From assembly GCA_012523435.1 (NCBI GenBank), contig JAAYIP010000191.1, positions 1 to 44,900 on the forward strand: a stretch of 44,900 nt of DNA, written 5' to 3'. Source of the stretch: Bacteroidales bacterium (GTDB lineage Bacteria; Bacteroidota; Bacteroidia; Bacteroidales; UBA12481). The translations under genes were made by a program, and so were the position numbers. The notes below the pieces were generated by a model. It was not told where the DNA came from and did not search any database. It saw only the letters and a list, made by a program, of their open reading frames with translations. Below are positions 1-11,958 of the stretch, one piece after another; positions within the stretch are counted from its first letter, which is position 1; the number at the start of each line of letters is the position of its first letter.

Positions 1-970
1 GGGAGTTAAAGAGCCGCCTTTCGCCCGTAATTATTTCGCCCGACAGCTCCTGATGAGTCCTTTTTGCTGCTTCTTTACCCAAAGCGGCGGCGCGGATAGC
101 CATTTTGGGGGCTTTATCGAGCGGGGACATCATCGCATCGTATTGTTTGCGCAGATTGTCAACTTCCTCCTCGCCAATAAAGGTGTTCATCTCAAAGATG
201 ACGCCGGATTTGCGGATCCGATCGATCTCTTGGTTGAGCACCACTTCCGGGAGGATCTCCCGGGAGACCGAGTAGCGCAAGGCTCCACCGGGCTGCTCGT
301 TCTGATCAAATATAGTACACTGAAAACCAGCTTGTTGTAAATACCATGCAGCAGATAAACCATAGGGTCCAGATCCGATGATGGCAATATTTTTATTCAG
401 TTTATGGGTAGGAATAATTGATTCGGCAGGGAGGTTTTCCTGTAGGTGATGATCTCCCGCGATTCTTTTAAGCAGGCAGATAGCCACCGGTTCATCGATG
501 GATTTCCGGCGGCAGGCTCCTTCGCAGGGGGCGGGGCAGATGCGTCCCAACACGGAGGGCAGGGCGATATCCCGGATCACGACATCATAGGCTTGCCGGA
601 ATTCGCCAGCTGCCAGATGCCTGTTCATCAGCGGGATATCCATGTGGGCTGGACAGGCGCGTTGGCAGGGGGCTTCGCAATCCCCGACATGGTCGCTGAG
701 CAACAGGTCGAGAGCGGTTTTACGTGCCTCTCTTACCTCCTCATCTCCAGTGATGATCTGCATGCCCTCTTCTGCCCGGATGGAGCAGCTCGGGATCATT
801 TTGCCGTTACGCTCATCCTTTACCACACAGATCATACAGGAGGCAAAGTGGGGCAGGTCGCCGTTATGGCACATTGAGGGAATGATGATCCCCAGCATAC
901 CGGCGGCTTCCATCAGGGTAGTTCCGGGCTCAACTTCTATCGGTTGATGATCTATGGTTAGGTTAATCAT
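1..970 (-). CDS. [2Fe-2S]/GltD-like flavoprotein, partial (C-terminus beyond left edge)
   Basis: ATG at 970; 323 codons are visible and the frame is open to the window edge. Residues 1-75 form a plant-type/NuoG-like [2Fe-2S] ferredoxin domain with C34, C45, C48 and C62. Next comes the two-motif Fe-S region of GltD/NfnB-type proteins (C98, C102, C106 followed by Pro; then C145P, C149E, C153). A dinucleotide-binding fold follows with GSGPYG at 199-204 and PGGALRY at 227-233, as in the FAD half of glutamate synthase beta chain. At about residue 280 the sequence jumps from the end of this FAD half (QYDAM) to what looks like the family's C-terminal segment (PKMAIRAAALGKEAA). The NAD(P)H domain and the FAD-contacting GD motif therefore appear absent. 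It starts 6 bases after the NuoE-NuoF fusion stop, so the two products probably form one complex. I infer a role in electron transfer between NADH, ferredoxin and FAD. No hydrogenase H-cluster motif is visible. Confidence 0.85.
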   Translation of the reverse strand, partial: MINLTIDHQPIEVEPGTTLMEAAGMLGIIIPSMCHNGDLPHFASCMICVVKDERNGKMIPSCSIRAEEGMQIITGDEEVREARKTALDLLLSDHVGDCEAPCQRACPAHMDIPLMNRHLAAGEFRQAYDVVIRDIALPSVLGRICPAPCEGACRRKSIDEPVAICLLKRIAGDHHLQENLPAESIIPTHKLNKNIAIIGSGPYGLSAAWYLQQAGFQCTIFDQNEQPGGALRYSVSREILPEVVLNQEIDRIRKSGVIFEMNTFIGEEEVDNLRKQYDAMMSPLDKAPKMAIRAAALGKEAAKRTHQELSGEIITGERRLFNS

Positions 971-976
971 GGCTCC

Positions 977-3319
977 TCAAAATTTATCAATGGCATCCAC
1001 CGGGCAGATCAGGCGGCAGGTATCGCATTTGATACACTTCTCCTGCTCAATTTCGTGTTTCTCGTGTGGTTTGAACCGGATAGCTTCGGTGGGGCATTTT
1101 TGTGCGCAGAGTGTGCATCCGATGCAGTTATCATTGATGGTGTAATGAATCAAGTCGGCGCACTTGCCGGTTGGGCAATGTCCCTGAATGTGAGCTTCAT
1201 ATTCGTCACGGAAGTACCTTAGGGTGGTGAGAACGGGGTTTGGGGCTGTCCGGCCCAGGCCGCAGAGGCTCCCCTTGCGGGTCCATTCGGCCAGCTTCTC
1301 CAGCTCATCCAGGTCGGAGGTTTTCCCCTTGCCTTGGCAGAGTCGTTCAAGAATATCCAGCATCCGCCGGGTGCCGATCCGGCAGAAGGTACATTTTCCG
1401 CACGACTCTTTTTGGGTGAACGACAGGAAGTAGCGTGCCATATCGACCATACAGTCGGTATCATCCAGCACTACCAGACCTCCGGATCCCATCATAGCTC
1501 CCAGCTCAGTCATGGTTTCAAACCCCACCGGGGTATCGGCCAGGCTGGCAGGGATACATCCTCCCGATGGGCCACCGATCTGTATTGCTTTGAACTGATG
1601 GCCATTGGGTATTCCGCCGCCGATCTCTTCCACGATCTCCCGGATGGTGATTCCCATAGGTACCTCGATCAGCCCGCCGCGTGCAATTTTCCCCGCCAGG
1701 GCAAAAACTTTGGTGCCCTTGCTGGCATTTGTTCCCATGCGATTAAATTCGGTAGCGCCATGGCGCATGATGTAACTGACCATCGCGAGGGTTTCGGTGT
1801 TGTTCACCACGGTGGGAGCTCCCCAGAGCCCTTGTTCGGCCGGGAACGGTGGCCGGAGTGTCGGAAATCCCCGCCGTCCCTCAATGGAAGCAATCAGAGC
1901 AGTCTCTTCGCCACAGACAAAGGCGCCGGCTCCCTCGTATAGCCTGATCCTGAAGTTAAACGAGCTGCCCAGAATGTTTTGACCGAGGTATCCGGCTTCG
2001 GCGCATTGGCGGATCGCCTCACGGATGCGCTGAACAGCCAGCGGATATTCGGCCCGGATATAGAAAAATCCTTCGCCTGCTCCCGTTGCATACCCAGCTA
2101 TCAGCATGCCCTCCAAAACGCGATAAGGATACGACTCCAACAACATCCGGTCCATGAATGCTCCAGGGTCGCCCTCATCTCCGTTGCAGATGACATATTT
2201 GATGTCAGACTTCTGCCGCGAGACCATCTCCCACTTCACTCCTGTTGGGAATCCTCCTCCCCCTCGCCCGCGCAGTCCACTCTCGGTGATCTCCCGAATT
2301 ACTTCGGCAGGGCTCGTTCCGGTAAGACATTTCTTCAATGCCTTAAACCCTCCATTTTTCTTATACTCGTTGATATCAAGAGGGTTAAGTGCCCCGCGAT
2401 ACTCCGTTGCTATGGAAATCTGCCTGCCGAGAAATGAGGAAACCTCCTTCTCCCGGATGGAGGAAGAGTAGCGATCAACCCCGTCCCAGGTACGGTCGTC
2501 CTGAATCGTATTAATCAGGTTGAATGCCTTTACGCTAAGTTTTTTCCAAAAACCGGTCGGGCTGAAGTGCTGCTCAATGATTTGACGGACGTCGCCGGGC
2601 TTAACCTGGGTGTACAGAATGGGGTCGCCATTAACAGGCACAACTTCTACCAAGGGAACCTGGTGACACATCCCAACACAACCTACATTCTTTAGCTTGA
2701 TATTCAGAGAGTTGCTTTCGACGGTCTCTTCAACTGCCTGGCGGATAGCTTCGCTCCCGCTGGCCACGCAACAGGAACCCAGGCCGATTCTGATCTCGCC
2801 CTCAATTTCCCGACCCAGGGCAGTCCGGAAGGTTTTATCTTTACTTTTACCGAGCTGGTTTTTAAAATCTTCCAGCAATTTTCCGGCCTGATCGGGGGAG
2901 ACGTGACCATAGGTGATGCCATCGATCTGGACCACTGGAGCGATCGTACAGCATCCGAGGCAGCTGACCTTTTCCACGGTGAAGGTCCCGCTGGCATCGG
3001 TATCCTTTCCTTCCGTGAGATCAAGTTCCCGGCAGATAGCATCATAAACCAGTCCGGCCCCCTTGACATGGCAGGCGGTTCCGATGCAAACCCGTATCAT
3101 GTGTTTGCCAACGGGTTGTAGCCTGAACTGTGAGTAGAAACTGGCCACACCGATGATCTGGGCCGGGGTAATTGGCGTGATTGCACAGACCCGTTTGAGT
3201 GCCACCTCAGGTAAATAGTGATATTTTTTCTGGATGGCCTGCAGAATGGGAATCACCGCTGAAGTCTCCCTTCCGGTGGATTCAATGATTTGGTCTATAT
3301 CGTTGATATTGAATTCCAT
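977..3319 (-). CDS. NuoE-NuoF fusion, NADH-binding flavo-iron-sulfur subunit with two extra [4Fe-4S] clusters
   Basis: About 780 aa; ATG at 3319 (an in-frame TTG lies directly upstream). Residue numbers count from that TTG. Residues 1-160 are a NuoE/HydC thioredoxin-like [2Fe-2S] domain (C79, C84, C121, C125). Residues 165-255 are a second thioredoxin-like [2Fe-2S] domain, as at the N-terminus of HydB/HndC (C184/C185, C215, C219). Residues 300-690 are NuoF, with the NADH/FMN loop GLRGRGGGGFPTG at 349-361, NGDEGDPGAF at 380-389, GEETALIASIEGRRG from 471, and the N3 [4Fe-4S] ligands C641, C644, C647 and C687. The C-terminus holds two ferredoxin clusters (C733/736/739/743 and C763/766/769/773). 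The family oxidises or reduces NADH at FMN and passes electrons through Fe-S clusters, and in HydABC/Hnd-type enzymes it takes part in electron bifurcation. The E-F fusion in one chain is less common than separate subunits. It lies 6 bases after the upstream gene. Confidence 0.93.
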   Translation of the reverse strand: MEFNINDIDQIIESTGRETSAVIPILQAIQKKYHYLPEVALKRVCAITPITPAQIIGVASFYSQFRLQPVGKHMIRVCIGTACHVKGAGLVYDAICRELDLTEGKDTDASGTFTVEKVSCLGCCTIAPVVQIDGITYGHVSPDQAGKLLEDFKNQLGKSKDKTFRTALGREIEGEIRIGLGSCCVASGSEAIRQAVEETVESNSLNIKLKNVGCVGMCHQVPLVEVVPVNGDPILYTQVKPGDVRQIIEQHFSPTGFWKKLSVKAFNLINTIQDDRTWDGVDRYSSSIREKEVSSFLGRQISIATEYRGALNPLDINEYKKNGGFKALKKCLTGTSPAEVIREITESGLRGRGGGGFPTGVKWEMVSRQKSDIKYVICNGDEGDPGAFMDRMLLESYPYRVLEGMLIAGYATGAGEGFFYIRAEYPLAVQRIREAIRQCAEAGYLGQNILGSSFNFRIRLYEGAGAFVCGEETALIASIEGRRGFPTLRPPFPAEQGLWGAPTVVNNTETLAMVSYIMRHGATEFNRMGTNASKGTKVFALAGKIARGGLIEVPMGITIREIVEEIGGGIPNGHQFKAIQIGGPSGGCIPASLADTPVGFETMTELGAMMGSGGLVVLDDTDCMVDMARYFLSFTQKESCGKCTFCRIGTRRMLDILERLCQGKGKTSDLDELEKLAEWTRKGSLCGLGRTAPNPVLTTLRYFRDEYEAHIQGHCPTGKCADLIHYTINDNCIGCTLCAQKCPTEAIRFKPHEKHEIEQEKCIKCDTCRLICPVDAIDKF

Positions 3320-3325
3320 CAACTG

Positions 3326-5200
3326 TTAATTTGCGGCTATGCAATATAAAAACTGTTCGCCCCGGAGATAGATCGTTCCATCGGTGAATGCCGGTGTGAC
3401 CACCGATTTCTCTCCCAGAACCGGGCTACCCAGCTTCACGGGAGTTTTATCGAGCTTGTAAATATGCATAGTTCCACCCCGATCCATCACATACACTTTT
3501 CCGTCGGCGATCATCGGGGAGCCATAAAACCCTTGTCCGAACTCCTCCTCCCAGTACTGATCGCCGGTTTTGGCATCAAAGCAACCCAGCACGCCGTAGG
3601 TGGTGGCGATGAATATGAGTCCTTGGGCTACAGCCGGACTCGCGGTTTCGGGAAGGACATCATACTGTTGCCACAGTATTTCAGGGTTGGGGCCCGGCCG
3701 GATAGCTACCAGAGAGGCATATTCGTTCGCGGCATAGACAATACCATTGGAAAAGGCTGCTGAGGGGCCCACTTCGCCCGATAGTACATCCACCGACCAA
3801 AGTTCCTGGCCTGTTTGTGCGTCGAATCCGGCAACCGAAGGTGCGGAGGTGGTGATCACCTGCATCTTGCCGTCAATTTCCGCCAAGATGGGTGATGACC
3901 AGGATATTTTTGATTTTCTGACGGTTTCCCAGATGGTCTCTCCGTTGGCCATGTTGAGTCCGAGGAGCCGACCGCTTTTATTTGTATCGTATTGAACAAT
4001 AAGGGTTTGGTTAAAGTAGATAAGAGAAGAGGAGTGCCCGTAGTGGTTATCTGGAACCCCTAAGTTTTTGGCCCACACCCGATCGCCATTGTGGGTGAGC
4101 GCAATCAAGTCGCCGGTGCCGAAGATGGCATAAACACGCTGGTTGTCAACTGTTAAGGTTGGAGCTGAGAGTCCGGTGTCATTGGTAGTTTTCGGTGCGG
4201 TGGCTGGTGTGCCGGGGATATTGTTGGCTTCGGCTTGCCACAATAGATCGCCTGTGAGGCGGTCGAAGCAGAAAACCCATCGGCCCTGGGCATCAGCGCC
4301 GGCGAGAAAGAGCTTGGTGCCCCAGATCACCGGTGAATTGTACCCGGGCTTGGGAATCTTAGCTTTCCATTTGATATTGCGCCCGGAGGGACCATCCCAA
4401 GTTTCTGGCAAATTCTTTGCTTTGGAGATGCCCTGCCCCAGATGTCCTCTGAAATAAACATGATTTAAGGCGGGAAGAGCACTTACGGCTGTTCCAACAA
4501 GTGGCTCGGTCGGCTGTGTCGGCTGATCTGGAATATCAGCGACTTCGACTATTGGCGCAACGGTCTCAATATTAGTATGTTCTATGGTGTCGATAGTGGG
4601 TGGGTCGACTTCGTTACGGCTGTCAATTTCCTCCTCCTGCTCGATCAGGTCAATAACCTCCACGTCGCTCTGTGTCTCCTCAGTAACAGCCTCAGCCACT
4701 ACCTCTCCGGTGAGTTCGCCCTTCTGATATTTGTCGAGATAATCCACAGTCACCAGAGAACCAATGACTGCGCCGATAAACAAGATGGCTCCAATGCTCA
4801 GAATCCATCGCTGGGTGACAATCCGGTTGAGCAACAGGTTTCCGCCGCTGATCAAGGGTTCGCCAATCCTGGCTTTCAGGCTGTGGTAGATTCTTAGCAG
4901 GACAGCAAAGGCGATTGCACCGGCCAGCAAGAGGAAAGCCCCGGTTTTGATCTGCCACTGACTGGTGAAATAAGCTTTCCGTGCTAAAAGGTCAAGATTG
5001 CGGATATCCCGGATCAGGGTTTCGCTTTCGGGGTTCGACTTGAACTGCTCGACCAGCTGCGTAAGCGCCACACTTTCAAGTGGATCATGATACCTGACGT
5101 GCAAATAATTCAGGAGCAGCAGCAGCGCCACTATCAGCGTGAACAGGCCGGCAACGGCCATCAATTGGGATACCAGTTTTATCCTGGTTTTTTCATCCAT
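3326..5200 (-). CDS. Three-TM membrane protein fused to a PQQ-like beta-propeller
   Basis: ATG at 5200 overlaps the last 8 bases of the polyferredoxin gene (translational coupling), giving 624 aa; a longer in-frame reading to 5245 is possible but less likely. Three membrane helices are predicted by eye at about 10-32, 85-104 and 132-151. An acidic, Thr/Pro-rich linker follows (about 160-245, with runs of Glu/Asp), then a BamB/PQQ-like propeller (about 250-624) with tryptophan-docking repeats such as TGDLLW, NGETIW, TGQELW and TGDQYW. There is no CXXCH haem motif. The linker looks like a flexible tether placing the propeller outside the cytoplasmic membrane. Function unknown; by context it is a structural or docking part of the redox operon. 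The propeller type alone does not show that PQQ is bound. Confidence 0.85.
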   Translation of the reverse strand: MDEKTRIKLVSQLMAVAGLFTLIVALLLLLNYLHVRYHDPLESVALTQLVEQFKSNPESETLIRDIRNLDLLARKAYFTSQWQIKTGAFLLLAGAIAFAVLLRIYHSLKARIGEPLISGGNLLLNRIVTQRWILSIGAILFIGAVIGSLVTVDYLDKYQKGELTGEVVAEAVTEETQSDVEVIDLIEQEEEIDSRNEVDPPTIDTIEHTNIETVAPIVEVADIPDQPTQPTEPLVGTAVSALPALNHVYFRGHLGQGISKAKNLPETWDGPSGRNIKWKAKIPKPGYNSPVIWGTKLFLAGADAQGRWVFCFDRLTGDLLWQAEANNIPGTPATAPKTTNDTGLSAPTLTVDNQRVYAIFGTGDLIALTHNGDRVWAKNLGVPDNHYGHSSSLIYFNQTLIVQYDTNKSGRLLGLNMANGETIWETVRKSKISWSSPILAEIDGKMQVITTSAPSVAGFDAQTGQELWSVDVLSGEVGPSAAFSNGIVYAANEYASLVAIRPGPNPEILWQQYDVLPETASPAVAQGLIFIATTYGVLGCFDAKTGDQYWEEEFGQGFYGSPMIADGKVYVMDRGGTMHIYKLDKTPVKLGSPVLGEKSVVTPAFTDGTIYLRGEQFLYCIAAN

Positions 5201-6479
5201 GGGCAATCGTTTTATCGACAGGACAATAATCCAGGCACCTGGCACAACTGTAACAGTCGGCCCGGTTGGCCTGATAATCTTCTTTTCTCCGGAAAATAAG
5301 CTGATTTAGGGCAGTCAGACCGATCACCAGTCCGAGGAACCCACCAAGAATCATGGCGCCGATCCGAAATTTTTCTCTGATGGTAGCGGCATCTTCGGTG
5401 AGAGTTTCAAGCGTTTGCCCGGATGCTAGAAAGGTCTGGATATCAAGATTTAACGGGTCGCTCCTCAACTCAGGATGAGCAATCAATAGCTCAGCGAGAT
5501 AGACTGTTGAGTTCGCTCGTGAGAGAAAGACATGCGACAGGCTTCCGATGAACATCCCGACTGCGATCAGGACAGGGATTAGTGCGGCGAATGTGAGGAA
5601 TCTGCGTGTTTGGGTTCGGGGTTCGGGTTTGGTTTGTTCTGAATCGGGGAAATCAATAGCTTCGAAAGGGCATGCAGTAGTGCAGAGTTTACACTGTACA
5701 CAGCTGGTTGGATAGATGGAGAGGTGCCATTTAGAGAACCTGGAGGTGAGACTGAGGAGGGCACCATAGGGACAGATAAACCGGCAGTAGGGGCGTGCGA
5801 CGAAGAGTCCCATGAGCAAAAACGCGATGCCCAGGAGGATCATGATGAATTTGCCGTTCAACCGGTAGATGCCGATGAACGGATCGTACCGGCAGATGAT
5901 GAAATCGGTGCCGGTTGTGGCAAAGAGAACCGCTAATCCCAGATAGGTCCACGGTAGGATACTCAGTGACTTGCGCAGCCAAACCGGTAGGTTGATGGGC
6001 TTGAATATGATCAGATCCTGGATGGCACCTAGTGGGCAGGCGGCGGCACAGAATACCCGGCCAAAGAATAGACTGAATATCAAGGGTAAAAGAAACACCA
6101 GCAGTGCCACCAAGGGCAATCGGTAGGTTGGGTCGGCCAGCGCCAGCGCCACGTTTTGAATGGATCCGACGGAGCAGATACAGCCCTGTTTGTAAAATCC
6201 AAAATAGAAGAGGGAAAAAATCGTGAGGATCAGGATGCCGTAACGCGATCGCCGGCGGATGGCAACCCAGGCAGTCAGGCTCATCACCAGTACGAGAATT
6301 GCCAAGTCGAGGAATTCGAGTGCAGGGCTGCGGGGGGCAGGATGCTCTGGTACTGGTTGGGTATATTCAGTTTTAAACTCCGGTTTAGGAAAGCGTTGCT
6401 GGGCATACGAATGGTTCGATGCACACAGGAGTACAATCAGAAGCATAAGGCTACGGATCAGACCGGCTAACCAGTTCAT
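5193..6479 (-). CDS. NapH/NosR-type polytopic polyferredoxin
   Basis: Start set at ATG 6479 (428 aa), 13 bases after the upstream ferredoxin gene; an in-frame GTG at 6509 would overlap that gene. A signal peptide-like segment (residues 1-27, ending in SYAQ) precedes several membrane helices. Cysteine motifs are C100-x-C102, C144AAAC148P, C232RFIC236P, the ferredoxin motif C260/263/266/270, and a second complete ferredoxin motif at the C-terminus (C409/412/415/419). The paired CxxxCP motifs between helices are the hallmark of NapH, CcoG, RdxA and the NosR C-terminus, which carry electrons across or along the membrane, in several cases from quinol. The adjacent NapG-like ferredoxin supports this reading. 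No nitrate, nitrous-oxide or haem protein is encoded nearby, so the terminal partner is unknown. Confidence 0.88.
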   Translation of the reverse strand: MNWLAGLIRSLMLLIVLLCASNHSYAQQRFPKPEFKTEYTQPVPEHPAPRSPALEFLDLAILVLVMSLTAWVAIRRRSRYGILILTIFSLFYFGFYKQGCICSVGSIQNVALALADPTYRLPLVALLVFLLPLIFSLFFGRVFCAAACPLGAIQDLIIFKPINLPVWLRKSLSILPWTYLGLAVLFATTGTDFIICRYDPFIGIYRLNGKFIMILLGIAFLLMGLFVARPYCRFICPYGALLSLTSRFSKWHLSIYPTSCVQCKLCTTACPFEAIDFPDSEQTKPEPRTQTRRFLTFAALIPVLIAVGMFIGSLSHVFLSRANSTVYLAELLIAHPELRSDPLNLDIQTFLASGQTLETLTEDAATIREKFRIGAMILGGFLGLVIGLTALNQLIFRRKEDYQANRADCYSCARCLDYCPVDKTIAHG

Positions 6480-6492
6480 TCGGAGGGTTTTG

Positions 6493-7047
6493 TCAGGATG
6501 TGAACGCACCTTTTATCAGATAAGGATTTTCAATTGGGACTCGTTTGATGGCATCGGATGGGCAAACGCGTGCTATGGCGCACTGGTTGCAGTTATCGCA
6601 CAGGTCGTGCCGGATCTGCAGGTGCAGGGATCCGTTTCCGAAAGAGGTACATCCTTTGACGCATTTACCGCACCCGTTGCAGAGTTTTTCATCAATGGCA
6701 TACTCAAAGAAAGGCTCTTCCACAAATTTTCGCTGGATAGCTCCGGTGGGGCAGAGCTGGTTTTCTGCGCCGGTATTGAGATCCATCGTGTTAGGCTTGA
6801 AATAGCCCCCGCACAAGTCGCAATAGCCACAAAGATCATAGGCGTGGACACATTTAACTGCCGAAGGGGTCTTGATACATTCGGTAGCACAGCGACCGCA
6901 CTGGGTGCATTTCATGGGGTCGATCTGCCAGACATACTGACCAGATGCTGATACCCGTCTTTTGAAGAAGATCTGCCCTGTGATAAAGAGCAGAGCTCCC
7001 AGAATTGAGTATCGCCCCACGTTGGTAATGAATTTTTTACGATCCAT
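6493..7047 (-). CDS. Membrane-anchored ferredoxin with four [4Fe-4S] motifs (NapG/MauM-like)
   Basis: ATG at 7047 gives 184 aa and overlaps the end of the upstream propeller gene by 11 bases. The N-terminus (DRKKFI followed by a hydrophobic segment to residue 28) resembles a Tat-like signal or anchor with KK/RK instead of a strict RR. Cluster motifs are C47/50/53/57 with C66, C73/76/79 with distant C99-P, C123/126/129/133, and C150/153/156 with C162-P. This matches the NapG/MauM layout, a ferredoxin carrying four clusters and held on the periplasmic face. It sits directly before the NapH-like gene, the same order as napG-napH. I infer that the two work as a quinol- or ferredoxin-coupled electron relay. 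Confidence 0.87.
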   Translation of the reverse strand: MDRKKFITNVGRYSILGALLFITGQIFFKRRVSASGQYVWQIDPMKCTQCGRCATECIKTPSAVKCVHAYDLCGYCDLCGGYFKPNTMDLNTGAENQLCPTGAIQRKFVEEPFFEYAIDEKLCNGCGKCVKGCTSFGNGSLHLQIRHDLCDNCNQCAIARVCPSDAIKRVPIENPYLIKGAFTS

Positions 7048-8011
7048 GCTGATCTTTTTTTTCGAATATTCTGATGCTATTCCGATCGAAATCCAAGGCC
7101 AGGATCTCCCCGGCGGAGGTAACAGCCAGATCGGGGGCTGTTTTTCCTGTTTCAAAAGATGAGGGAGGGGCCACCACGCTACTCAGTTCTCCAGAGGGTT
7201 TGTATTCTTTAACTCTCACGAGCCCTTTCTCGGCTGTCACAAAGAAACCATCGGGAAGAATGGCCATGTGAGCTGGATTACAGCATCCGCTGAAGCCGGA
7301 AATGTCCATGGATGGTTTTGCCCAGTGGCTTCGGAGATTCCCGTCTGTTGTGTAGTTTTCCAGGGCGTGCATGCCTGGATTGACGACCCAGAGTTCTCCG
7401 TCAGGAGTAAAAGCCACATCGAAATAGAAACTTGGCACGATAAAACCATGGAGATCTTCCGATTCTCTTTTCCCATAGATCTTCCGAATCAGCGTTCCAT
7501 CCTCGTTAAACAGAAGAAGCACTCTTTGCCCGGCATCGGCCACAGCCACCAATCCTTCATGAAAAGCCACTGAGGTGAAATGTGATGAGTCAGATTCGGA
7601 TAGATAGCTCCGAATCAATTGACCTTCAAAATTATAGAGTGAAACCAGGTTATCAAAGCCGATGAATATTCCCGATTTCACTACCTGAATGCAGTTAGGT
7701 CGTCCGGTTAAAGTCATTTTCGATTCCTGTTGTCCCTCTTGGGAGATCACCTGGAGGTTATTTTCGGTGACCAGATAAATGTGGTTATCAAACCAGGAGA
7801 TCCCTCGTGCCTTATCCTTGCCCAGCCGGATATTTCTGGTTTCGGAGTAGTGAATCATTGCAGGGTCAACTTTTTCAAACTCGCTGATATCATAGGCATA
7901 GGGATTATCGGGGCGCTTATCCAGCTGAGTTGATCGGTGGTCGGTATAAACAAGTACCGCAATCAATCCGGCGAGTAGAATCAGAAAAACATATAGGACT
8001 TTTTTGTTCAT
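7037..8011 (-). CDS. Membrane-anchored NHL/SMP-30-like beta-propeller protein
   Basis: 324 aa from ATG 8011. Residues 4-22 form a single hydrophobic signal anchor (VLYVFLILLAGLIAVLVY), and the rest is predicted outside the cytoplasm. The body contains NHL-like blades (ARGISWFDNHIYLVTE, SVAFHEGLVAVADAGQRVLLLFNEDG, DVAFTPDGELWVVNPG, LAVTSAGEILALDFDRNSIRIF). This type of propeller is unlike the PQQ-type ones on both sides. NHL propellers bind small ligands or act as lactonases or lyases, but no catalytic signature is visible here. It is the fourth consecutive propeller gene in the operon and lies 51 bases after the preceding gene. Function unknown; probably a periplasmic partner of the Fe-S proteins. 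Confidence 0.8.
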   Translation of the reverse strand: MNKKVLYVFLILLAGLIAVLVYTDHRSTQLDKRPDNPYAYDISEFEKVDPAMIHYSETRNIRLGKDKARGISWFDNHIYLVTENNLQVISQEGQQESKMTLTGRPNCIQVVKSGIFIGFDNLVSLYNFEGQLIRSYLSESDSSHFTSVAFHEGLVAVADAGQRVLLLFNEDGTLIRKIYGKRESEDLHGFIVPSFYFDVAFTPDGELWVVNPGMHALENYTTDGNLRSHWAKPSMDISGFSGCCNPAHMAILPDGFFVTAEKGLVRVKEYKPSGELSSVVAPPSSFETGKTAPDLAVTSAGEILALDFDRNSIRIFEKKDQHGS

Positions 8012-8062
8012 TTGATGATTTGGCTCTCGTGGTGACTTTCTGTTTTGATCGTTGTAATTATT

Positions 8063-9487
8063 TTATTTAGAGATATTTAGGCAAAACATGTGTTTGGAGT
8101 CTCTCAGGATCATATATCCATCAGCGATAGCAATAGGAGCCCAGGCATCCTGTCCATCGAAGAGTTTGATTTGGTCGATTTGAACATACGAATTAATATC
8201 AGGTTTTGCGATAGTCATAGTTCCGTCATCGCTGAGAATGAATAATTTATCATCTGCAATCAGGTAAGGGCCAAGGCCAAAGCGGTTGCCTTTATCGCTG
8301 GTCCACACTGGTTTGCGGAGGTTAGATGGGTTGACGCATACCAGTTGATTTCGAAGGGCTCAGGCGTCTTTTGGCTGGATACCGATCAGGTGACCTTTGA
8401 AGTAGAGGGAGGTTTGTTGTTCGGTAGCCAATCCTTCCGAAGGTCCATACTCGTCGAGAATCTCCACCTCGAACTGGTTTCCATTGGGCACCAGACGGAT
8501 CATCATGGAGCCGGCGCCATAGCCTGCTGATAGGAAGATGCGTCCATCGGGCAGGCACACAGGTGATGGGGCCACAACGCTTTTGTTCCAGGCGCTGGTG
8601 CTCCAGAGCGTTCGTCCAGCATCCTGGCCATCGGCAGCGATGCCCATCACTCCGCCCACAGCGCTGTACACGAACATTTTCCGTCCGTTGAAAGTCATCG
8701 GCATGATAGAGGAGTGCGACATTTTCCAGTTGCCGGGATTGGGGGTTGACCAGATCTTTTCGCCAGTAGAACAGTCGATGGCGACGATAAATGTTTCGCC
8801 TCCCGTGGCAATGATGGCACGGTCCTGATCAACGAGAGGGCACTGACCGGTGTACCAGAATGGGATCTCTGGCGAATGTTCTCTTTCGGTATCATAACCC
8901 CACAGGAAATCTCCTGTGATCCGGTCGACACACATCACATGGCCCCGTGGCCCCAGCGTTACCACATAGTTCTCGGTAACAGCTGGAACAGTTCTTGACA
9001 TGCCATGGTTTCGCCTGATAGTCAGTCGGTAACCTCGTTGCCACACCTCTTTACCATCGCTCAGATTGAAACATCGGAGCAGGTCGGCCCGGAGGACCTC
9101 ATCATAGTCGAGAACATAGACAGCTCCTTGGTAGATTGCCGCTCCGGCGTGTCCTTCGCCCAACTCTTTTTGCCAGACAATTGGTGGCACCTGACCGTTG
9201 AAGTGATCAATCAGGGGTACCTTGGTGGTTGAAAGATTATCGAAGGCCGCTCCCCGAAACCGTGGCCAGCTCTCATTTAATGGGCTAATCTCACCCCCGG
9301 GGGCATGGAAATACTCTCCGATATTAATCATTTCAAGGGCGGTATCGGATCGTGCCGGACGGTTATCGGCTCCTGGGATGCTTGCCTTGATGGTCCTTGC
9401 GGGATCAAATAGCAGCCACCAGGCAAGCAGCAGGGCCCCTATCAGGGCCACTGATGCAACAATAATATGCAGGACCCTACTGGTCAA
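8063..9487 (-). pseudogene. Signal-anchored PQQ-like beta-propeller interrupted by an in-frame TGA at 8360-8362
   Basis: Read through, the frame encodes 474 codons; codon 376 is TGA. The start is TTG at 9487, only 4 bases after the upstream stop, and no ATG is available before residue 50. A signal anchor spans about 5-27 (LHIIVASVALIGALLLAWWLLF). PQQ-like blades follow with motifs such as TGDFLW, TGEKIW and GRTLW. Upstream of the TGA the frame reads HLIGIQPKDA. Downstream, in the same frame and with no shift, it reads ALRNQLVCVNPSNL and then a well-conserved last blade (NRFGLGPYLIADDKLFIL) ending at 8063. A single GGA-to-TGA change would explain the stop. Alternatives are a sequencing error, stop-codon readthrough, or selenocysteine. 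Other genes here use TGA as a normal stop. Confidence 0.8.
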
Positions 9488-9491
9488 TCAA

Positions 9492-10742
9492 TTATTTCTT
9501 CTTGATGTCATAAACCATCAGCACATCGCCATGCCTTAGGTATAATTTGCCGTCATAAATGGCGGGATGAGCCCAGAATGGCCCAGTTCCCCCCTCTAGT
9601 TTGAAGGTGCTGATCATCCGAAACTCCGTTGGATCAGGTTTAACCAGCGCCACATTGCCAGTTCGCTCTTCCATCAGGTATAACAGCCCATCGGCAAAAA
9701 TGATCGGACCTTTGTTTTTCCAATCCTCGTCCCACTGAACCTCACCCGTAGCCCAGTCGAGACAGACCCATCTCCCCTTGCCATTATTCAGCCAATTGGA
9801 TCCGTAGATGTATCCTTCATGAACGATCACGCCATGGTGGTGATTATCAAGGACATTACTTATCCATTTCTCGCTGACGGAACGATGATCAGGGGCAACT
9901 TTAAGCATCATAGCAGGATAGTCATACCCGCGGGTGATGAATATTTCATCCCCAACCACGACAGGGCTGTTCGGGAAGATATGACCACCGTCATCGTTGA
10001 CTTCACGATCCTTAACCCAATGCCGGTAGCTCCAAAGAACCTCTCCGCTTGATGGATTTACGGCGGTGATGAACTCGGTAGTGACGGCCAGGATAAGCTC
10101 TTTCCCGTGAATTGTTTTCAGCACCGGTGAAGCGTAAGTGCGAATTCCACCCACGGATGGAGTTGACCAGACCGTTTTACCCGTCATCTTGTCGAGGGCA
10201 ATCACGGTGGTCTGTTCGCCAGCTGGCGTGCTGATAACCAGGTTATTCCATATAAGTGGCGACTCAGATACGCCCCACTTGTGCCAAGTGCAACCAAAAT
10301 CCTGATCTACCTCTCTCGACCAGATCGCTTTCCCATCACTGAGGTTGAAGCAGGTGAGGCGCCCCTGACCACTGGTGACATAAATGCGATTGCCATCAAT
10401 TGTTGGGGTGCTACGGGTGTCGGGGAAAGATTTACCCCACGAATCTCCGCAGGGAACTTGCCATTTAATCGTCCCGAGTGGGGTGATGCAGGTCAGGTGA
10501 TCCACCCGGTCTTTCATCCCGGTGACGTAAATGTTTTGCTGGTGGTCGATAACAGCGGAGGAGAACCCGACGCCAATACCTTCAACCGTCAGGATTTTTG
10601 CGGGACCATTCTCCGGCCAGCTCGTTAGCAATCCGGTTTCTTCATATCGACCATCGCGGTTGGTGCCTCTAAACTGAGTTCTTTGGGCTTGCAGTCCTGT
10701 TGTAAGGATCAGGAGCAGCAGGAAAATTGTGGTTTTTCTCAT
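9492..10742 (-). CDS. Secreted PQQ-like beta-propeller protein
   Basis: 416 aa from ATG 10742, 4 bases after the stop of the preceding paralogue. A cleavable signal peptide is clear (residues 1-19, hydrophobic core then LQAQ), and no membrane anchor follows. The body is a BamB/PQQ-like propeller with repeats SDGKAIWSRE, TGKTVWSTP, SGEVLWSYR and TGEVQWDED, a W-docking pattern typical of eight-bladed quinoprotein-like folds. The N-terminal block (QFRGTNRDGRYEETGLL) is the conserved opening of the secreted outer-membrane-biogenesis/PQQ-like group. There is no haem motif and no recognisable catalytic Asp/Ca2+ site. It aligns by eye along its whole length with the next gene (10747-11958), so the pair arose by tandem duplication. 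Function unknown. Confidence 0.88.
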   Translation of the reverse strand: MRKTTIFLLLLILTTGLQAQRTQFRGTNRDGRYEETGLLTSWPENGPAKILTVEGIGVGFSSAVIDHQQNIYVTGMKDRVDHLTCITPLGTIKWQVPCGDSWGKSFPDTRSTPTIDGNRIYVTSGQGRLTCFNLSDGKAIWSREVDQDFGCTWHKWGVSESPLIWNNLVISTPAGEQTTVIALDKMTGKTVWSTPSVGGIRTYASPVLKTIHGKELILAVTTEFITAVNPSSGEVLWSYRHWVKDREVNDDGGHIFPNSPVVVGDEIFITRGYDYPAMMLKVAPDHRSVSEKWISNVLDNHHHGVIVHEGYIYGSNWLNNGKGRWVCLDWATGEVQWDEDWKNKGPIIFADGLLYLMEERTGNVALVKPDPTEFRMISTFKLEGGTGPFWAHPAIYDGKLYLRHGDVLMVYDIKKK

Positions 10743-10746
10743 TTTT

Positions 10747-11958
10747 CTACTTTAACTGGTAGGCCATCAGGGTGTTTCCATGACGCAGATATAGGATTCC
10801 ATTGTGAAGGACTGGGTGGGCCCAATGTTCACCGCTTCCCAGGGTAATCTGTGTCTTGCCAGTGATCTTAAACTCATCCGGAGATGCTGGGGCGATGAAC
10901 AGTTCGCCACGCTGGGAATAGCCTATCAGCATTCCATCAGCATAAATAGTGACACCCTTGGCAGCCTCGCGCGATTTGTATTTCTGTTCCCCGGTTTTCC
11001 AGTCGATACACTGCCACTCTTTGCCGGAAATATCGCCAGAACCATAGAGATACCCGTTAACCAGAACTGCGCCACCCATCCGGCTATCCATGGTTTGTGC
11101 GAACCACTCCTGGGTTACAGAGGAGCCATCGGGACTCAGGCGAAGCTTTGGTCCGCCCTGACGGTAACCGCTGAAACAGAACACTGCACCATCATGATAG
11201 ATGGGTGTGTTGGCATGAACGGAGTACTGGTTGGTCTGGGGATGCTTCCACAGCATCTTCCCATCCTCAGCGTCCAACCCGATGATGTGGCCAGCCGTCA
11301 TGGTTACTAAAAGCTTGCGCGATGGGAGATTGATCAGGAGGGGAGTGCAATAAGCTGATAATTCACCATTTCCTGGGCTTGACCAGATCAGATTACCATT
11401 ATGACGATTCAGGGCTATCACATTATTCGTGGCACCACCGGGTGTACAGTAAAGCACATCACCATCCACCACCACCGTTTCGGTTACACCCCACTGAATG
11501 TTCTTGCCATCAAAATCTTTGAAGAGATGTTTCTTCCAGCGAATCGCACCCTTCTGGATATCAAAGCAATATAGTCCACCCATTCCCGATTCCACATAGA
11601 GTAAATCACCGGCAATGGTCACAGACGAACGCGTTCCGGGCCAGCTTTCATAGAAATCCACCCCATATTCCCACCGATCGATCAGCTTGCCATCCATCGA
11701 CAGTACGTAGATGCTACCAATCGTATCGGTCATTCCGGTGACATAGATGCGGTTGTTGGCGATAACAGGCGAAGAGTGGCCAATGCCAATACCCTCATAA
11801 TGCCAAACCATTTCCGGACCGTCGGCAGGCCACTGTTTCAGCAAACCTTGATCGGGATAAATACCATTCCCTTCAGGGCCTCTCCAGCGGGTAGCTGTCT
11901 GGGCTGATAGTTCAATAGAAATCAGCATTAGGATGAGTGAAAAAAACGTTCTATACAT
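10747..11958 (-). CDS. Secreted PQQ-like beta-propeller protein, first gene of the redox operon
   Basis: 403 aa from ATG 11958. Signal peptide 1-19 (LILMLISIELSAQ). The mature part starts with RWRGPEGNGIYPDQGLL, matching the corresponding block of its downstream paralogue. Blades carry DIQKGAIRWKK, HNGNLIWSSP, EDGKMLWKHP and KTGEQKYKSR. It ends in YLRHGNTLMAYQLK, against YLRHGDVLMVYDIKK in the paralogue. As the first gene after a divergent promoter region, it probably begins the transcript that runs to the left edge. The product is predicted to be periplasmic or surface-exposed. The family is usually named outer membrane protein assembly factor BamB-like, but nothing here ties it to the BAM complex. 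Confidence 0.88.
   Translation of the reverse strand: MYRTFFSLILMLISIELSAQTATRWRGPEGNGIYPDQGLLKQWPADGPEMVWHYEGIGIGHSSPVIANNRIYVTGMTDTIGSIYVLSMDGKLIDRWEYGVDFYESWPGTRSSVTIAGDLLYVESGMGGLYCFDIQKGAIRWKKHLFKDFDGKNIQWGVTETVVVDGDVLYCTPGGATNNVIALNRHNGNLIWSSPGNGELSAYCTPLLINLPSRKLLVTMTAGHIIGLDAEDGKMLWKHPQTNQYSVHANTPIYHDGAVFCFSGYRQGGPKLRLSPDGSSVTQEWFAQTMDSRMGGAVLVNGYLYGSGDISGKEWQCIDWKTGEQKYKSREAAKGVTIYADGMLIGYSQRGELFIAPASPDEFKITGKTQITLGSGEHWAHPVLHNGILYLRHGNTLMAYQLK

Follow-up and report, generated by a model that had tools for sequence, protein, structure and literature searches.

An in-frame TGA in a conserved propeller gene of a fragmented Bacteroidales-type MAG: a probable sequence error or mutation of very recent origin

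A PQQ-like beta-propeller gene in the analysed stretch of Bacteroidales DNA (44,900 nucleotides, referred to here as the window) is interrupted, in its assembled form, by an in-frame TGA. Our results point to an error in the sequence or a mutation of very recent origin as the most likely source of this TGA, and not to a special mode of decoding. We favour, with a probability of about three in four, a wrong consensus base of the fragmented Bacteroidales-type MAG, one among several scattered substitutions that created stops; the choice of a wrong base over a real and very young mutation is the step that we infer.

The window gene and its neighbours

The stop was read from the assembled sequence as TCA on the plus strand, i.e. 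TGA on the minus strand, where it forms codon 376 of the 474 codons of the window gene, about four fifths along (Table 1). The part preceding it matches the PQQ_2 family (PF13360) with E=3.1e-15 and 56.9 bits, against a curated cut-off of 27.6. As the first-pass annotation had proposed, propeller sequence flanks the TGA on both sides in the same frame, since the orthologues align over residues 1-474. In the alignment of 98 orthologous loci the family homology crosses the site free of gaps, and the downstream frame is therefore more than a chance open frame. The complete frame over all propeller blades, broken in the assembled window copy, is unbroken in every orthologue examined. The statement that the downstream part has no ATG of its own was too broad: in-frame ATGs are present (in GTMTI, GYMIL and HMFCL) and a GTG lies 18 codons past the stop, and all that is missing is a start near the beginning of this part.

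The window gene belongs to a minus-strand gene run with two PQQ-like propeller genes upstream. Downstream follow, in this order, the NHL-repeat protein, two ferredoxin-type proteins, a longer PQQ-like protein, and NuoE/F-like and FAD/2Fe-2S subunits. All frames of the run are intact, which agrees with the earlier description of the flanking genes. The run, spanning positions 2-11958, thus holds four PQQ-like propeller proteins alongside the NuoE/F-like and FAD/2Fe-2S subunits and the ferredoxins, which are NapH/NapG-like. In relatives, tandem propellers again adjoin the orthologue. A second intact copy of the window gene was not found in the genome, where the paralogues are at most 29% identical, and a plasmid search for near relatives gave no match.

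Table 1. Coordinates of the window gene, its surroundings and the clearest in-frame stops elsewhere in the assembly
Feature	Position	Strand	Basis or remark
PQQ-like (BamB/PQQ_2 type) beta-propeller gene, TGA ignored, 474 codons	8066..9487	-	translation, PQQ_2, orthologues
Pre-stop part, 375 codons, TTG start	8363..9487	-	reading frame
In-frame TGA	8360..8362	-	alignment; orthologues mostly Gly, else Ala/Arg/Leu, never Cys or stop
Post-stop part, 98 open codons, final propeller portion, conservation kept	8066..8359	-	translation, orthologues, divergence
Ordinary TAA stop at expected gene end	8063..8065	-	reading frame
Weak stem GACGC/GCGTC, inner GCC/GGT, around the TGA, not significant	8333..8368	-	folding
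Intact PQQ-like propeller gene, paralogue about 26% identical	9492..10742	-	domain search, homology search
Intact PQQ-like propeller gene, paralogue	10747..11958	-	domain search, homology search
Intact downstream gene with NHL repeat	7037..8011	-	domain search
fusA (EF-G), in-frame TGA	L256 / L200:7228-7230, contig C78		Ala or Thr in same-genus EF-G (77-78% identical)
ABC transporter ATPase gene, in-frame TGA	L196:1045-1047, contig C166		Gly in a relative
XerC/D-like tyrosine recombinase gene, in-frame TAG	L175:9854-9856, contig C77		Lys in G004
DUF2961 gene, in-frame TAG	L201:18376-18378, contig C309
MiaB/RimO-like gene, in-frame TGA	L202:126-128, contig C294		within radical-SAM Pfam domain
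OmpA/TSP3 protein gene, in-frame TAA	L162:3474-3476, contig C106

The site in relatives and the age of the stop

Orthologues of the read-through protein, 46-68% identical to it, were identified in each of the seven same-genus genomes and across many families of the order, and none contains a stop; 80 loci were matched in the collection of species-representative genomes. At the aligned position, within the motif PKDAG-x-x-RNQ, the 98 orthologous loci (a count that includes some records fetched twice) carry Gly in 86 cases, Ala in 9, Arg in 2 and Leu in 1, and in no case Cys, Sec or a stop. The residue about which the first-pass annotation had been undecided (Gly, Cys or Sec) is thus mostly Gly, and this preference fits its proposal of a one-base change at a Gly codon in an otherwise intact gene.

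Evolution behind the TGA is not relaxed. When branch lengths were estimated by maximum likelihood with the tree held fixed, the branch leading to the window gene made up 7.8% of the tree length for the pre-stop part (0.46/5.89) and 4.8% for the post-stop part (0.18/3.73). Against the same-genus orthologues, pN is 0.16-0.19 in the post-stop and 0.23-0.25 in the pre-stop part, and the window gene departs from none of the 105 near-invariant columns. As the post-stop part has evolved no faster than the pre-stop part, the stop is either very recent or unreal, and the region behind it has thus remained normally constrained up to the very recent past. An old pseudogene was rejected, there being neither relaxation behind the stop nor any further lesion; the gene is, as had been remarked earlier, unlike one.

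In-frame stops elsewhere in the assembly

The genome is a 2.64-Mb MAG in 369 contigs. We searched about 844 kb of it for further in-frame stops by hexamer scoring combined with homology, inspecting the candidates one by one, so that the census is a partial one; an earlier codon-usage scan had been too strict and missed even the window TGA. Besides the genes listed in Table 1, there are two weaker cases: a TAG in a Kelch/T9SS gene, and a TGA that lies between regions 2 and 4 of an ECF sigma gene. All three stop codons occur and the replaced residues vary, which is the pattern of random substitutions and not of one recoded codon. In these coding regions, about 4.0% of substitutions placed at random would give a stop, and by rough arithmetic 7-9 stops per 844 kb correspond to a few substitutions per 10 kb. 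No frameshifts were seen in the compared parts of the assembly.

One of these genes is fusA. EF-G is essential, and the other EF-G-like genes of the genome are distant (47% and 29% identical to fusA), so that the stop lies in a gene without a close spare copy. If real, it could hardly be tolerated, and at least some stops of this assembly are therefore probably errors.

The background of in-frame stops is not zero, as the control genome G004 of the same genus has at least one probable case in 794 kb; part of the signal may thus consist of normal, real nonsense alleles. The G004 case is a probable TGA in the gene of an alpha-L-rhamnosidase-like protein (L219:6479).

Decoding of UGA and the other stop codons

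Could the TGA encode an amino acid? Two in-frame TGAs, those of the window gene and the ABC transporter ATPase, occupy Gly sites, and the region past the window TGA is still conserved, as expected if UGA were leaky or generally recoded and partly or fully translated, e.g. as Gly. Such a code (genetic code 25) is known from Absconditabacteria and Gracilibacteria (PMC8629427). The screen reported there took the presence of RF2 and the absence of a UCA tRNA to indicate that UGA terminates normally, and the genome studied here matches this situation. It carries prfB (RF2), with its own TGA-dependent frameshift site: the usual short upstream frame ends at TGA, followed by the shift into the main frame. 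No UCA anticodon occurs among the 35 tRNA genes listed from the possibly incomplete MAG, and tRNA-Trp has CCA. Furthermore, among 542 long frames in 735 kb of the genome, 156 terminate at TGA, as do the genes adjoining the window gene, and the genes closed by TGA largely stop at the same place as their relatives. A code-25 organism would use UGA frequently at Gly sites and not as a stop, whereas the in-frame cases here are rare, comprise TGA, TAG and TAA, and replace Gly, Ala/Thr, Lys and other residues. Reassignment of UGA is thus unlikely, and we regard leaky or general recoding as a whole as highly improbable.

RF1 was not found in the assembly with PF00472, which detected RF2 alone, while most relatives carry two release factors; the missing gene probably falls into an assembly gap. 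TAG reassignment, considered on account of this absence, was rejected because 11 of 13 TAG-ended genes stop where their relatives do. Two apparent early gene ends (L164 and L160) proved on reading to be ordinary ones. That the organism tolerates scattered stops, including that in fusA, through weak termination with RF2 only and a useful rate of readthrough seems even less credible than recoding of UGA.

Selenocysteine at the window TGA is the least probable reading of all, and its chance is close to negligible. It had been suggested by a possible stem around the TGA, GACGC pairing with GCGTC and, inside it, GCC with GGU. This stem is indeed the predicted minimum (-7.7 kcal/mol), although its GACGC is one base off the TGA and not directly adjacent as described. 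It has no significance compared with shuffled sequence (z = -0.37; 65 of 200 shuffles were equally good). A bacterial SECIS sits just downstream of the UGA. Here the stem encloses the UGA, which bears out the earlier remark that it resembles no known bacterial SECIS, and no SECIS hairpin was found just downstream of the UGA. The search for selA, selB and selC likewise spoke against this reading: in the fragmented MAG we found neither SelA nor the SelB wing domain (the E. coli control was positive), and the sole match to RF01852 above the cut-off was tRNA-Ser(UGA). Together with the lack of any Cys or Sec homologue, the normal RF2 and the presence of all three stops in frame elsewhere, these results remove the recoding option raised by the first-pass annotation and rule out selenocysteine as far as this can be tested in a fragmented MAG. 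By the reasoning of that annotation, a sense codon in the homologues and a genome in which no selenocysteine machinery is found leave an error or a fresh nonsense mutation.

Consensus error or young nonsense allele

The main rival to a consensus error is a real, very recent nonsense mutation, a fresh pseudogene or strain allele, to which we assign a low but appreciable probability. The protein would then be cut before the last part of the propeller, which probably could not close, in an otherwise intact operon. A single substitution separates the TGA from the class of Gly codons usual at the site, and the gene has no other damage, as in a young allele; moreover, conserved genes interrupted by an in-frame stop are widespread among bacteria (PMC7918605), the probable case in G004 being consistent with this. 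The stop in fusA, hardly a tolerated loss, argues against reading all stops of the assembly in this way. An error in the window gene is favoured by the sense codon at all 98 orthologous loci and in the seven same-genus genomes, by the lack of selenocysteine machinery and of relaxation behind the stop, and by the in-frame stops of all kinds elsewhere. The lack of frameshifts speaks against it, so that the error model must consist of substitutions only, and since unusual residues are not in excess in the window gene, the errors would have to be sparse. According to the consensus-error model, scattered single-base errors would happen to create stops, the window TGA among them, while the gene carried by the living population would probably specify a normal PQQ-like propeller of full length, with Gly or another tolerated residue at the site.

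The case serves mainly as a warning. When a conserved gene in a fragmented MAG carries a clean in-frame TGA, recoding should be considered only after one has examined the homologues, the genes for selenocysteine, the release factors, and whether essential genes of that assembly contain stops as well. True recoding would represent a new change of the code within Bacteroidota, but the evidence is against it.

Comparison with known systems

The window gene resembles the BamB-like propellers of PF13360 in its domain match, in the tandem propeller paralogues adjoining it and in its full-length orthologues across Bacteroidales-like genomes, and differs from them in the TGA of the assembled copy. An in-frame TGA is also what it has in common with the genes of bacterial selenoproteins; unlike them, it is accompanied by neither the machinery nor a Cys homologue nor a SECIS. 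With genetic code 25 it shares a TGA at a Gly site, but in the present genome, which belongs to another lineage, RF2 is present, no UCA tRNA was found, TGA is an ordinary stop and other stop codons occur in frame too. It also resembles the in-frame stops described for prokaryotic genes in PMC7918605, where only those common to at least two genomes were retained in order to exclude sequencing errors: here, too, a single stop interrupts a gene whose frame is kept, whose flanks are conserved and whose dN behind the stop is low, whereas the window stop is unique to one assembly.
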